Of a DNA stretch of 64,000 nt, positions 2,026 to 49,041 are shown piece after piece. Source of the DNA: Mycoplasmatota bacterium (GTDB lineage Bacteria; Bacillota_I; Bacilli_A; Izemoplasmatales; Izemoplasmataceae); the NCBI GenBank assembly GCA_030600605.1, contig JAUVLT010000001.1, positions 1 through 64,000 on the forward strand, written 5' to 3'. A model generated the notes under the pieces. The model saw only the letters and a program-made list of their open reading frames with translations, was not told the origin of the DNA and did no database searches. Both the position numbers and the translations under genes were made by a program. How positions within the stretch are numbered: the stretch's first letter is position 1; the number at the start of each line of letters is the position of its first letter.

Positions 2026-2181
2026 AATATTCCGATAAAAAAAGATCTTTTACGCCTAAAAAGGAGTAAAAAACCTATCATCCTTTCCAAACGCGGGAGG
2101 CACAATAATTTCTCATTATACCCAATGGCTTATTAATCATAGTTGCTCATAACACCCGTAGATTAAAAAGCTCGGAATATT
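2026..2181 (-). promoter_or_regulatory. Molybdenum/tungsten cofactor (Moco/Tuco) riboswitch upstream of tupA
   Basis: Minus-strand RNA AATATTCCGAGC...GGGTATAATGAGAAATTATTGTGCCTCCCGCGTTTGGAAAGGATGATAGG...TCGGAATATT. It has the conserved GCCUCCCG-n-UGGAAAGG core as in the E. coli moaA leader and a perfect 10-bp closing stem (2172-2181 with 2026-2035). Confidence 0.9.
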
Positions 2182-2349
2182 TTTAACTACCTTAATAATA
2201 CCACAACATAACGTTTTATCATATACTATGGTAAAATATTTAAATATTTTCTTCTCCCTATCTAGCTTAAATATTAAATTTATTGAAAACGTTACCATTT
2301 TTAGGTATAATTAAAGGTGAGTTAAAAAAATAATATGGGAGGTATTTAA

Positions 2350-19414: not shown

Positions 19415-20251
19415 TCACTTTCTTTCAATGCTAACTGAATATCCTAGTTTTTTAAAATATGCTAGAGTGTCTTGATATCCAAATTCATATATTTCTTTTG
19501 AATGATTGGAAGTAAAATTAAGAACCCCTCCCATTTTCTTTCTTCCTTTTATTTGGTGGATTTTGACATTAGTGAATTTTTCAGATTGTATTAACTCAAA
19601 TGCAAAAAATGATATCCCAATTACTATAATCTCATTACAACCTATCTCAACTAGAGGACGAATAGGAGTATTGTCAAAAACTCCTCCGTCATAATATTTT
19701 TTATTGTTGCTAGTTACCCCAGGAAAAATAAAAGGAATAGAACAAGATGCAGTTACAGCCTTTAGTTGTTCTTCCTTGTTCAAACTCTTTAAAGGTAAAT
19801 ATAAAACTTTACTATTCTTCTTTACATAGTGTTTATATGAAGATTTAAAAAGCTCAAAAAAACTCTTTGTCATATCTCCGCTTTCAGATACAGTAACAAA
19901 AACATCCTTTTCTTTTAGTTTGTCATAATTGATTACATCAATCATAATTTTATTAAATGTTTCCATTGTATATAATCCATTATCAAAAGCTTTAAGCTTT
20001 TCATCCTTTAATCTTTTAACAATTGGCCCTGATAGTTTAAGAGCATCTTCAGGAATATTAAACCAAATATCACGTACTTGTTTAATCGAAGTAGAAGCCA
20101 TTACAGCTACATTAGCTGCTCCAATTGAAGTTCCTGAAAAAGCAGAAATATTCTCATATATTCCTAAATCTGAAAGTGCTTGAGCTGCTCCAATTTGATA
20201 AGCTCCTCTAGCTCCTCCCCCTGTAAAACATAATCCTATCTTTTTTTCCAT
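19415..20251 (-). CDS. Patatin-like phospholipase
   Basis: GGGARGAYQIG oxyanion loop, GTSIGA nucleophile elbow, DGGVFDNTP catalytic Asp motif. Confidence 0.92.
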   Translation of the reverse strand: MEKKIGLCFTGGGARGAYQIGAAQALSDLGIYENISAFSGTSIGAANVAVMASTSIKQVRDIWFNIPEDALKLSGPIVKRLKDEKLKAFDNGLYTMETFNKIMIDVINYDKLKEKDVFVTVSESGDMTKSFFELFKSSYKHYVKKNSKVLYLPLKSLNKEEQLKAVTASCSIPFIFPGVTSNNKKYYDGGVFDNTPIRPLVEIGCNEIIVIGISFFAFELIQSEKFTNVKIHQIKGRKKMGGVLNFTSNHSKEIYEFGYQDTLAYFKKLGYSVSIERK

Positions 20252-44931: not shown

Positions 44932-46176
44932 TTATTTCAAAGCTTCAATTAATTCTGCTTTTCTAAGTTTTGAATATCCAGTTAATCCTTTTTCTTTTGC
45001 TAATGCTTTTAATTCAGTAACTTTCATACTTGAATAATCAACACTAACTTTTGCCGTAACTTTTACTTCTTCTACAACTTTAGGTTCTACCTCTTTTTTT
45101 ACCACTGGTTTAACTTCTTTTTTTACCACTGGCTTAACTACAGGTTTAACTACTTCTTTTTTTACCACTGGTTTAACAACAGGTTTAACCACTGGTTTTG
45201 TTTCAACTTTTACAGTTGGTTTAACTTCTGGTGTAACAGGTTTTGTTTCAGCTTTTGCTTCAGAAATTGGTTTTCTACTTTGGATAAATGGTTTTCTATC
45301 TTTATTGAATTGTTTTTTTGTTCCTTCATATGGTTTTTTTGTTCCCTCATATGGTTTTTTTGTTCCTTCATATGGTTTTTTTGTTCCTTCATATGGTTTT
45401 CTGTTTTTATCATATGGTTTTCTGTTTTTGTCATATGGTTTTTTATATTCAGGTCTAGTTTGAGCTGGTCTTTCAACTACGGTTTCAATAATTTCTCCAC
45501 CAGTAGCTTCGATAAATGCGTTAGCTAATTTACCAACAATTAATCTTACTGATCTAATTGCATCATCATTAGCAGGAATAATTACATCTACTAAATCAGG
45601 ATCACAATTTGTATCAACGATTCCAAATACAGGAATTTTTAATTTTCTTGCTTCTAGAACTGCATTTTTTTCTTTCATTGGATCAACAACGAAAATAGCT
45701 TGAGGTAAAGTTCTCATATCTTTAATTCCACCTAAGAATTTTTCATATTTTTCCAATTGTTTTTTTAACCCTATAACTTCTTTTTTAGGTAAACGTGTAA
45801 ACGTTCCATCTTTTTCCATTCTATTAATTTCATGTAATTTTCTAATACTTTTTCTAATAGTTTTGAAGTTTGTAAGTGTTCCTCCAAGCCATCTTTGTGA
45901 AACATAGTATTGTCCTGATCTAATTGCTTCTTCTTTAACTACGTCTTGAGCTTGTTTTTTGGTTCCTACAAATAAGATTTTTCCACCATTTTTTCCAATT
46001 TCTAATAATTTAGCATAAGCTTCATCGATAAACCCTACAGTTTTTTGTAGATCGATAATATGAATCCCACCTCGACTTGTATAGATATACTTGTCCATTT
46101 TAGGATTCCAACGGCGAGTTTGATGTCCGAAATGAACACCAGCCTCAAGTAACTGTTTCATTGATATTACAGCCAT
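44932..46176 (-). CDS. rpsB: 30S ribosomal protein S2 with long repeat-rich C-terminal extension ending in a Rho_N-like motif
   Basis: [35 protein letters not shown]...[27 protein letters not shown] (S2 core), then (KPYEGTK)n, (KPVVKKEV)n, and [43 protein letters not shown]. Confidence 0.93.
45310..45445 (-). repeat. ~21-bp tandem repeat inside the rpsB extension
   Basis: Repeated TTGTTCCTTCATATGGTTTTT-type unit encoding KPYEGTK / KPYDKNR. Confidence 0.85.
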
Positions 46177-46218
46177 TTTGATTCCTCCTTTTGATTTGCC
46201 TCCACATTTATCTACATA

Positions 46219-46252
46219 TTTAGCCACCACTTCTAAGCAGCTCAGGGCTAAA
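46219..46252 (-). promoter_or_regulatory. Hairpin in the rpsB leader
   Basis: Minus strand TTTAGCC-CTGAGCTGCTTAGAAGTGGT-GGCTAAA with inner CTGAG/CTTAG pairing. Confidence 0.45.
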
Positions 46253-46385: not shown

Positions 46386-46913
46386 TTACTTATAAGTTTT
46401 AACTACTGCTGACTTATTAATCATTACAACATCATTTAAGACTTTGTATAATGGTTTATACATCCAAAGAACTGTTAAAAATCCAGTTATTGCCATAACT
46501 ATCTCAAATGGTAAATCGGCAAGGAGATAAGGTATGAACTTCGAAATGCCTGTTTGAATCATATTGAAAGGAATATACATCCAACCATAAACAAATCCAA
46601 AAACAAATGCAAACAACGCTAATTTGGTTTCATTTTTAGTTTTTCTTAAAATAGTATGATAACTAATTGGTATTAAATACCAAGCTAACATCATTGGAAC
46701 CATATAGAAAATATTAAATCCTCCCATATATAAACTATCTAAAAAGACATAAGAAGTAATCATCATAATACTCTCTTTAAAACTAAAAACACTTACAAAG
46801 AGAATAATTAATAAAACCGTTAATTGAACATTTGGAATAAACATTAACAATTGTTCTTGAGTAAAAATGATAGCAATTGCTAAAGCGACCATTAATAATC
46901 TTCTAGTTTCCAT
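46386..46913 (-). CDS. ECF transporter S component-like membrane protein (putative cobalamin)
   Basis: ~6 hydrophobic segments, 175 aa; last gene of the B12-riboswitch operon. Confidence 0.65.
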   Translation of the reverse strand: METRRLLMVALAIAIIFTQEQLLMFIPNVQLTVLLIILFVSVFSFKESIMMITSYVFLDSLYMGGFNIFYMVPMMLAWYLIPISYHTILRKTKNETKLALFAFVFGFVYGWMYIPFNMIQTGISKFIPYLLADLPFEIVMAITGFLTVLWMYKPLYKVLNDVVMINKSAVVKTYK

Positions 46914-47344
46914 TATTCATCATCTCCTACTTCTTTATATTCAAATCGAAAGACATCTCCATCATTTAAAGATATCAAATCAATTCCCAGATTGGAATAT
47001 TCATCATTCTCATATATTCCAATATAATTATTTAGCCAGTCTGTTTCAAGGGTATCTATTTTCAAGATAACTCTACTTCCATAAAGTAATGGTTCACAAT
47101 CTGTTGTAATATGATAAGAACTATCCGCACATCCGACTTCAAACTCTTCATCTAAAATAGAGAAAAGCGAATCTGAGGCGGTGAATTTATATGTTTTATT
47201 TGAAATAGTATCACCCATTTCATCAATTACAATAATTGTAATTTCACCTAATTCATCATTATAATTTTTTGAAAAAGCGAAAAATCCCAATATTAAAACT
47301 ACTATAGCTACTACAGTTAATATGTATTTTTGCATCTTTTTCAC
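46913..47344 (-). CDS. DUF4430-type (transcobalamin-like) domain protein
   Basis: N-terminal TM anchor; SDSLFSILDEEFEVGC...SRVILKIDTLETDWLNNYIGIYENDEYSNLGIDLISLNDGDVFRFEY. Confidence 0.65.
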   Translation of the reverse strand: MKKMQKYILTVVAIVVLILGFFAFSKNYNDELGEITIIVIDEMGDTISNKTYKFTASDSLFSILDEEFEVGCADSSYHITTDCEPLLYGSRVILKIDTLETDWLNNYIGIYENDEYSNLGIDLISLNDGDVFRFEYKEVGDDE

Positions 47345-47353
47345 TTCTTTCTA

Positions 47354-48721
47354 TCAACTAAAATTAAATGGGTTTACTGCGGTATAGGTATTAGCATAAG
47401 TTTGATAAACAACTAACGCTAAAAAAGCTTGAGGTGTACTGAAAAGAAGATCTTCACTATATTCATCACCAAATGCCCAATCAAATGATCCTGTAGCTGT
47501 TTGGTATTCAAGTAATCTTGTAATTAAGTTATTATCCACTATTGTATAATCTGTTCCTACTGGATCAATCCCATTAGCAACTAGTCCTAAAACAACTTGT
47601 GATATGCTCGCTGCATTTTCAGTTCCAGGATAAACAGTACCTCCCCAAGTAACATCTCTTGTTATAACTCCTCCAGAGTCTAGTTGTGATGTACTAATCC
47701 ATGTAGCATATTCAGTAATTAAATCAGAAACTCCTGTTTCATCAGTATAATTACTCAATGCCAATAAACTAACTCCACCAGCATCAAGTCCTAAATCATA
47801 AGGTGATGTTGTTTCTAAATCAACTAACGCACTTGTAACAAATGAACTATAATCAACTGTATGACTATTACTATCTAAAGCAAGTAATCCATAAGCTGTT
47901 TGTCCATAAGCGCCAACTGTTACTATTGTATTTAAATCAGTAACTAAAACATCGGTATTTACTCCAACGCTTTGTAATTTTATAATTGCTTTAAAATAAT
48001 CATTAACAGTTGTAATTGTTAATCCATTTACTAATGTTTCTACTTCAGAATCAGTAACAAATTCATCTACTATCCCAAGTAAATATAATGCTGAGATAAC
48101 ATTGTAATCAACTGTTGTTGTATTTACATAATCACTTGCCTGATTAAGTAAAAACAACTGTATAGCATCATCTACTGCCTTCTGTGTCATATCCCACCAC
48201 ATTACTTCAAAGCTTAATATGTCACCATCATCAAATGTACTGGTTTCAACCCCTACCGTTGATGCTTCTCCATTTTTAGAGAATGAAATAAACGCTCCAG
48301 TTTTAGGATTTAAATGATCGATAGAAGTAATATAATTTCCATAATCAGTGACACTATATTCTAATGTGAAATTATTATTTAAGATGTCAAATAGGTTTCC
48401 AGTATAATCATCATTATATCCAATGGTTTTACTGGTAAATAACCCATATTCATCTGTTAATGTAAAAGTTATTACATTATCAAATACTAGGTCTTGTAAA
48501 TCACTAAGTTGTTCTTGAAGAGAAAGGATTGTTTCTTCTAAATCTGAAACTTCAGATTCACTTGAAGCTACAGTTTCTGTAAGTGTTGCAATTTCTTCTT
48601 CTAATTCCTCGATTGTTGCAATTTGTAAATCTAAATCTTGTTGTAATAAATCTAATTCGCTACATCCTGCTAATACTAAAATAAGTAAAAACACAGATGC
48701 TATAGAGAATAGTTTTTTCAT
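47354..48721 (-). CDS. Lipoprotein with coiled coil, DUF4430-like domain and intrinsic-factor/terpene-cyclase-like helical repeats; putative cobalamin-binding protein
   Basis: LVLAGCSELD lipobox; FDILNNNFTLEYSVTDYGNYITSIDHLNP...FDDGDILSFEVMWW; repeats such as YGQTAYGLLALDSN, AASISQVVLGLVANGIDP, LLFSTPQAFLALVVYQ; downstream of a B12 riboswitch. Confidence 0.7.
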   Translation of the reverse strand: MKKLFSIASVFLLILVLAGCSELDLLQQDLDLQIATIEELEEEIATLTETVASSESEVSDLEETILSLQEQLSDLQDLVFDNVITFTLTDEYGLFTSKTIGYNDDYTGNLFDILNNNFTLEYSVTDYGNYITSIDHLNPKTGAFISFSKNGEASTVGVETSTFDDGDILSFEVMWWDMTQKAVDDAIQLFLLNQASDYVNTTTVDYNVISALYLLGIVDEFVTDSEVETLVNGLTITTVNDYFKAIIKLQSVGVNTDVLVTDLNTIVTVGAYGQTAYGLLALDSNSHTVDYSSFVTSALVDLETTSPYDLGLDAGGVSLLALSNYTDETGVSDLITEYATWISTSQLDSGGVITRDVTWGGTVYPGTENAASISQVVLGLVANGIDPVGTDYTIVDNNLITRLLEYQTATGSFDWAFGDEYSEDLLFSTPQAFLALVVYQTYANTYTAVNPFNFS

Positions 48722-48747
48722 AATGTCCTCCTTCTAATTTATATGAA

Positions 48748-48775
48748 AATAAAAAAACCATCCTCCCGGATGATT
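48748..48775 (-). terminator. Intrinsic terminator, probable expression platform of the B12 riboswitch
   Basis: Minus strand AATCATCC-GGGA-GGATGGTTTTTTTATTT. Confidence 0.8.
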
Positions 48776-48834
48776 AAACGTTATATAACTATAAAAGTGA
48801 ACAGTTAAACAAACGATATACTCTCGACCCAGGA

Positions 48835-49005
48835 GTAATACTATTTATTAGATCACTAGGTAGGTCTACCGGCTTGAATTCATCCTACTATGCACCTTCC
48901 CGCTGTTAAGCAGTGGTATTTTGCATTTCGTCCTTCTTACGGTTGCTGGGACAGCTTGAGATTTTAACTCAATTCCCTGTTATGTCTTACGACACCTAAT
49001 ATCTA
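48835..49005 (-). promoter_or_regulatory. Cobalamin riboswitch (boundaries approximate)
   Basis: Minus strand TTAGGTGTCGTAAGACATAACAGGGAATTGAG...CAAGCTGTCCCAGCAACCGTAAG...CACTGC...GGGAAGGTGC...AAGCCGGTAGACCTACC (B12 box). Confidence 0.95.
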
Positions 49006-49012
49006 CTCTATA

Positions 49013-49041
49013 ATTCTATGCTTAAAAAAGATACTTGTCAA
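49013..49041 (-). promoter_or_regulatory. SigA-type promoter driving the B12 riboswitch operon
   Basis: Minus strand TTGACA-17 nt-TAGAAT immediately upstream of the riboswitch. Confidence 0.85.

Follow-up and report, generated by a model that had tools for sequence, protein, structure and literature searches.

Bacterial proteins that combine a DUF4430/SLBB domain with a toroid, at one end or the other, were described by Burroughs et al. (2007; PMC1796856), together with a paired second SLBB paralogue, CbiO/CbiQ-like genes nearby, and an occurrence in B12 non-producers; the authors proposed B12 scavenging and gene transfer to animals. An importer of the ECF type, ECF-CbrT of Lactobacillus delbrueckii (6FNP), was demonstrated experimentally in 2018 to import both cobalamin and cobinamide (PMC5997447). 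In animals, intrinsic factor, transcobalamin, and haptocorrin carry a toroid and a beta domain in one protein, and the BtuFCD system imports B12 under the control of a B12 riboswitch.

Here we analyzed a riboswitch-led operon that encodes a lipoprotein (LP), a second membrane-anchored protein (D2), and a predicted ECF S-component (S). It shares with the transcobalamin-like SLBB clade of Burroughs et al. a surface protein with DUF4430 and toroid domains, the second SLBB paralogue in the operon, and a host that shows no B12 synthesis, whereas it differs by the riboswitch and the CbrT-type S within the operon, by a shared ECF module encoded elsewhere, and by its family, which belongs to the Izemoplasmatales/Acholeplasmatales. 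In common with ECF-CbrT are the S family (as judged by profile), the shared group II ECF module, the linkage to pduO and nrdJ in related loci, and the lack of BtuCDF; in contrast, a B12 riboswitch and a dedicated pair of extracellular DUF4430 proteins are found here, and S and CbrT are 22% identical. A counterpart of these extracellular DUF4430 proteins may be encoded in L. delbrueckii by cbrS. Like the animal carriers, LP unites a toroid and a beta domain, but the beta domain comes first, the protein is a membrane-tethered lipoprotein with a coiled coil, and outside the beta domain the sequence similarity is near background. The BtuFCD proteins are unrelated to those of the operon and are absent from its own genome, although the system occurs in two relatives. 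The earlier note had described a B12-uptake route unlike BtuBFCD, which is correct; the route is nevertheless precedented by the prediction of Burroughs et al. (PMC1796856) and by ECF-CbrT (PMC5997447). Our literature search found no paper that joins DUF4430/toroid proteins and a CbrT-type S with a riboswitch. Each of the parts was known or predicted earlier, and the complete assembly is a new variant.

Operon layout and regulation

The window, i.e., the whole stretch of 64,000 nucleotides analyzed, is contig C60 of a genome of 1.51 Mb that is 99.7% complete. The host is a wall-less bacterium whose best-named relatives are Candidatus Izemoplasma/Izimaplasma (Mycoplasmatota), and its S gene is 71% identical to the copy in Ca. 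Izimaplasma sp. HR2. The operon lies on the minus strand, is flanked by dut and rpsB, and contains the following features, including every part that the earlier note had placed there:

49041-49013 (-), sigma-70-type promoter TTGACA-17-TAGAAT, 11/12 matches, immediately 5' of the riboswitch
49013-48842 (-), cobalamin riboswitch aptamer RF00174, 95.6 bits, full length
48775-48756 (-), intrinsic-terminator-like hairpin with T-run, between the aptamer and the first ORF
47354-48721 (-), LP lipoprotein gene, an ORF with lipobox, coiled coil, DUF4430, and toroid
46913-47344 (-), D2, membrane-anchored second DUF4430 protein, an ORF with GTG start and N-terminal TM helix
46386-46913 (-), S, predicted six-helix ECF S-component of CbrT type, an ORF assigned by fold model and family profile
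46381-46359 (-), operon-closing terminator-like hairpin, 3' of S

Since the order of each is kept across the family, the LP, D2, and S ORFs are real genes. NCBIfam gave no name for any of the three, and PDB searches with their single sequences returned nothing useful, whereas family profiles and folds were informative.

The strong, near-consensus promoter is the sole 11/12 match within 4.5 kb and the best of the region; promoter-like sites overall were not enriched (33 observed versus 25.9 +/- 6.2 in shuffles). The RF00174 match is complete (model positions 1-189), has an intact B12 box, and scored 95.6 bits (E 1.5e-22) against a gathering cut-off of 31.5 bits. Terminator-like sites numbered seven compared to 1.2 expected, and the hairpin with its T-run upstream of the first ORF is located where a transcription-terminating OFF switch would be placed, the function that we infer for it. 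Promoter, riboswitch, and intrinsic terminator were thereby all borne out as initially proposed. Only two RF00174 elements were found in the genome. The second (L072 3531-4293, contig C12) precedes a divergent gene for a PduO-type cobalamin adenosyltransferase, as identified by matches to PF01923 (E 5.9e-9) and PduO_Nterm (E 3e-16). At another locus (L046), this PduO-like protein is encoded together with an S paralogue and a further DUF4430 protein in a single riboswitch-led operon.

The S-component

S, a protein of 175 residues, is the best conserved protein of the operon, with invariant or near-invariant residues N28, Q30, W78, Y129, and D133, a PNVQ motif, and a small-residue A/SxxxA-like motif in TM1 (A10 in 61 and A/S/T14 in 71 of 75 relatives) that might serve for contact with EcfT. 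A Pfam search with the window copy gave no assignment. Its AlphaFold model (pLDDT 90.2) has six helices, and the best 15 PDB matches in the fold search were all ECF S-components (PanT, HmpT, BioY, FolT, RibU, and ThiT); 4HUQ_S reached a TM score of 0.70. The E values of this search were only 0.1-3, with probabilities near 1 for the best matches. When the profile of the 75 relatives was compared with all PDB sequences, the sole significant match was 6FNP_A (E 2.7e-9), which aligned over the whole length (residues 3-171 versus 4-177). As the pairwise identity of the window S to CbrT is only 22%, S is a CbrT-family homologue and, in the strict sense, a candidate orthologue at most; identity to CbrT rises to 34-37% in more distant members of the S family from other Bacilli, whose neighboring genes are of the same kind. 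The resemblance to an ECF S component noted earlier is therefore supported by the fold and by the CbrT-type profile match, and can be narrowed to the cobalamin type. Together, the profile and the structural model support S as a CbrT-type ECF S-component with a predicted role in cobalamin transport.

The extracellular proteins LP and D2

LP consists of a coiled coil (residues ~22-79), a DUF4430/transcobalamin-beta-like domain (~82-175), and an alpha/alpha toroid (~178-445). Its lipobox LAGC with Cys20 is kept in 58 of 60 relatives, and the two exceptions may be truncated or mis-started. The DUF4430 domain matched PF14478 with 32 bits (cut-off 23.8), and the structural model (pLDDT 92.7, pTM 0.85) places strands 120-125 and 128-134 after helix 110-117, a beta-hairpin after the helix being a DUF4430/SLBB trait. 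The best fold matches were to the beta domain of human transcobalamin (5NO0, E 5.1e-5; cobalamin-bound 5NP4, E 6.5e-5), and the domain also matched 3U7Z, the DUF4430 structure from Ruminococcus gnavus (TM 0.84). The toroid matched gastric intrinsic factor (3KQ4, E 5e-3; alpha domain 2PMV_B, TM 0.54) as well as class II terpene cyclases (drimenyl-diphosphate synthase 8ZG0, E 6e-4, and squalene-hopene cyclase). This fold is common to intrinsic factor and class II terpene cyclases, and the modeled toroid by itself does not separate a B12 binder from a terpene-cyclase-like protein. At the sequence level, the LP family profile gave weak PDB matches to transcobalamin and intrinsic factor; the eukaryotic cobalamin-binding family PF01122 had no match in the toroid of the window LP and matched one of 28 relatives (E 0.0015). 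The coiled coil, the transcobalamin-like DUF4430 domain, and the intrinsic-factor-like toroid ascribed to LP from the sequence were thus all recovered. LP is probably homologous to transcobalamin/intrinsic factor, from which it differs by its lipid anchor and reversed domain order, and is predicted to bind cobalamin.

D2 has an N-terminal membrane anchor followed by a second DUF4430 domain. The earlier description of D2 as a membrane-anchored DUF4430-like protein stands as to the anchor and, at the family level, as to the domain, which was matched in 20 of 33 members; the window copy itself remained below the Pfam cut-off (16.3 bits versus 23.8; E 0.014).

Conservation of the locus

S was found in 43 of the 49 family genomes and, like the riboswitch at the locus, in all 20 of the good ones. 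An RF00174 element is carried by 44 of the 49 family genomes, with exactly one above the cut-off in 38 of these 44, and wherever contigs were inspected the single elements lead the LP-D2-S operon, except in one genome (G046). G046 is without the usual operon and carries instead a riboswitch operon (L057, C1:17000-27000) with a PduO-like gene, a coiled-coil lipoprotein that has no toroid, a DUF4430-like protein, and a diverged S.

We further surveyed 80 named loci from GTDB genomes. A DUF4430 or LP partner adjoins S at 78 of the 80, and a riboswitch lies 5' of the genes at 70 of the 75 testable loci, a count that rests on the B12-box pattern for some loci and on RF00174 for others. The S family is present in 117 of 394 sampled Bacilli genomes. 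Several Bacilli have the order riboswitch-DUF4430-S-PduO, followed in some (L252, L254, and L255) by the ribonucleotide reductase domain protein NrdJ, and in L156 the order is KamDE-riboswitch-DUF4430-S-PduO-diaminopentanoate dehydrogenase. At L232-L242, the DUF4430 domain and a surface protein that is either toroid-like (in several) or unassigned are separate proteins that precede a CbrT-like S (34-37% identical to CbrT in the three tested), often with a B12 riboswitch upstream. This arrangement looks like a transcobalamin split into two genes, one for each half. In genomes that read through TGA (Mollicutes-like; L264, L265, and L269), S is accompanied by a small anchored, possibly DUF4430-like neighbor, and NrdJ adjoins S in L265 and L269.

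Many loci carry D2-S without LP (e.g., L118, L120, and L128), so that some lineages can do without this protein. The LP-less pairs of L120, L128, and L139 adjoin a gene for a CsoR-type repressor, and those of L120 and L128 also a CopZ/HMA-like gene; as a B12 riboswitch lies between D2-S and the CsoR/CopZ genes, these neighbors may be incidental. The apparent lack of a riboswitch at LP-less D2-S loci, based on the B12-box pattern, was overturned by the RF00174 searches, and a separate metal-related branch linked to CsoR/CopZ was dropped once RF00174 had been found at most of these loci. In two relatives (G013 and G012), an additional operon of riboswitch, BtuFCD, and cobyric acid synthase (L193 and L194) is present, and the classical system can therefore coexist with S. 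Elsewhere in G013 (L192, contig C7, genome position 19903-20101), a 121-bit cobalamin riboswitch has an unusual target, as the genes that follow it encode two membrane proteins of the YitT family (PF02588).

Genomic context

A full ECF module is encoded in the genome, with EcfT and EcfA2 on contig C84 and EcfA1 on C55; EcfA2 scored above the TIGR04521 cut-off and EcfA1 above that of TIGR04520. Adenosylcobalamin-dependent enzymes are represented by lysine 5,6-aminomutase KamDE, ornithine 4,5-aminomutase OraSE, and glutamate mutase (GlmS-like, MutL, and MutE), and a B12-binding radical-SAM protein is also present. Both the importer module and the B12-dependent enzymes that the earlier note proposed to look for thus exist in this cell. 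Its observation that BtuFCD-type genes are missing holds genome-wide: the BtuF family PF01497 had no matches, and the single FecCD (PF01032) match, which at first resembled BtuC, is a permease of the ABC-3/ZnuB type. CobS was not found in the genome. With adenosylcobalamin-dependent enzymes but neither CobS nor BtuFCD, the cell needs B12, shows no sign of the established pathway for completing it, and is devoid of the classical importer.

Two further features of the window lie outside the operon. A molybdenum/tungsten cofactor riboswitch (RF01055, 74.6 bits) at 2064-2189 (-) precedes genes for a PBP_like_2 binding protein and an ABC permease (1226-2005 and 534-1217, both (-)), which probably form a tungstate/molybdate importer. 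The tail of ribosomal protein S2 (44932-46230, (-)) is long and of low complexity, with KPYEGTK repeats and VVKPVVKK, and a Rho_N/SAP-like domain (PF07498, E 2.9e-9) stands at its end; S2 is comparably long in relatives.

Proposed mechanism and alternatives

The operon very probably serves B12 uptake, and we also have high confidence in the full scheme of a B12-repressed cobalamin-uptake operon in a B12-auxotrophic Izemoplasma-type bacterium. At low intracellular adenosylcobalamin, the riboswitch would permit read-through of the terminator. On the outer side of the membrane, LP would then catch cobalamin by enclosing it between the DUF4430 domain and the toroid, and the membrane-tethered D2 may help to hold or relay the ligand at the membrane. 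S would import cobalamin, powered by the single shared ECF module of the cell (EcfA1, EcfA2, and EcfT, encoded elsewhere), and the PduO-like adenosyltransferase, controlled by the second riboswitch, would make the coenzyme for the lysine and ornithine aminomutases and glutamate mutase.

The step toward which we lean only slightly is the hand-over of cobalamin from LP and D2 to S, which would make this an ECF importer served by binding proteins of its own outside the cell. In proteoliposomes as well as in E. coli, ECF-CbrT needs no extracellular partner to import B12 (PMC5997447), and because CbrT alone suffices in E. coli, LP and D2 may be nonessential. S could thus act alone, with LP and D2 having another surface role, for instance to concentrate B12 or keep it in store, to take it away from competitors, or to bind the envelope. 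The loci that lack LP and the toroid-less lipoprotein of L057 are consistent with such a division, which we regard as possible but rather doubtful, given that the DUF4430/LP neighbor at 78 of 80 loci and across Bacilli suggests a tight functional tie. Import of a corrinoid precursor (cobinamide) or of cobalt in place of cobalamin appears improbable. CbrT transports cobinamide as well (PMC5997447), and B12 riboswitches also govern cobalt importers, e.g., cbiMNQO in C. difficile (PMC11477304). However, the established way of completing precursors would be closed to a genome without CobS, the S protein matches CbrT rather than CbiM-type components, and the linked genes encode the coenzyme-forming PduO and adenosylcobalamin-dependent enzymes.

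A terpene-cyclase or prenyltransferase-toroid enzyme in an operon for lipid chemistry would account for the toroid of LP, which resembles intrinsic factor and, to the same degree, drimenyl-diphosphate synthase and squalene-hopene cyclase, and for the weak Prenyltrans/SQHop matches of toroid partners elsewhere. The catalytic DXDD motif, whose presence in a terpene cyclase would have overturned the reading of the earlier note, is absent from the window LP and has no conserved position among the 60 relatives. This absence, together with the secretion of LP as a lipoprotein, its fusion to DUF4430, and the B12 riboswitch at nearly all loci, makes an enzymatic role extremely unlikely.

Biological implications

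With cobalamin uptake as the preferred reading, a predicted substrate is assigned to a family of S-components for which Pfam and NCBIfam provide no name in this genome and which extends to the 117 Bacilli genomes noted above, and the "unknown" DUF4430 domain is tied to B12 import through the riboswitch at nearly every locus. This would explain how B12-dependent relatives among the Mycoplasmatota acquire B12 without BtuFCD. ECF systems as a rule work with no soluble or tethered receptor, and the operon would be an unusual exception if the hand-over from LP and D2 to S is true. The operon would then provide a bacterial counterpart of intrinsic factor and transcobalamin, and the animal B12 carriers may derive from such a machine.
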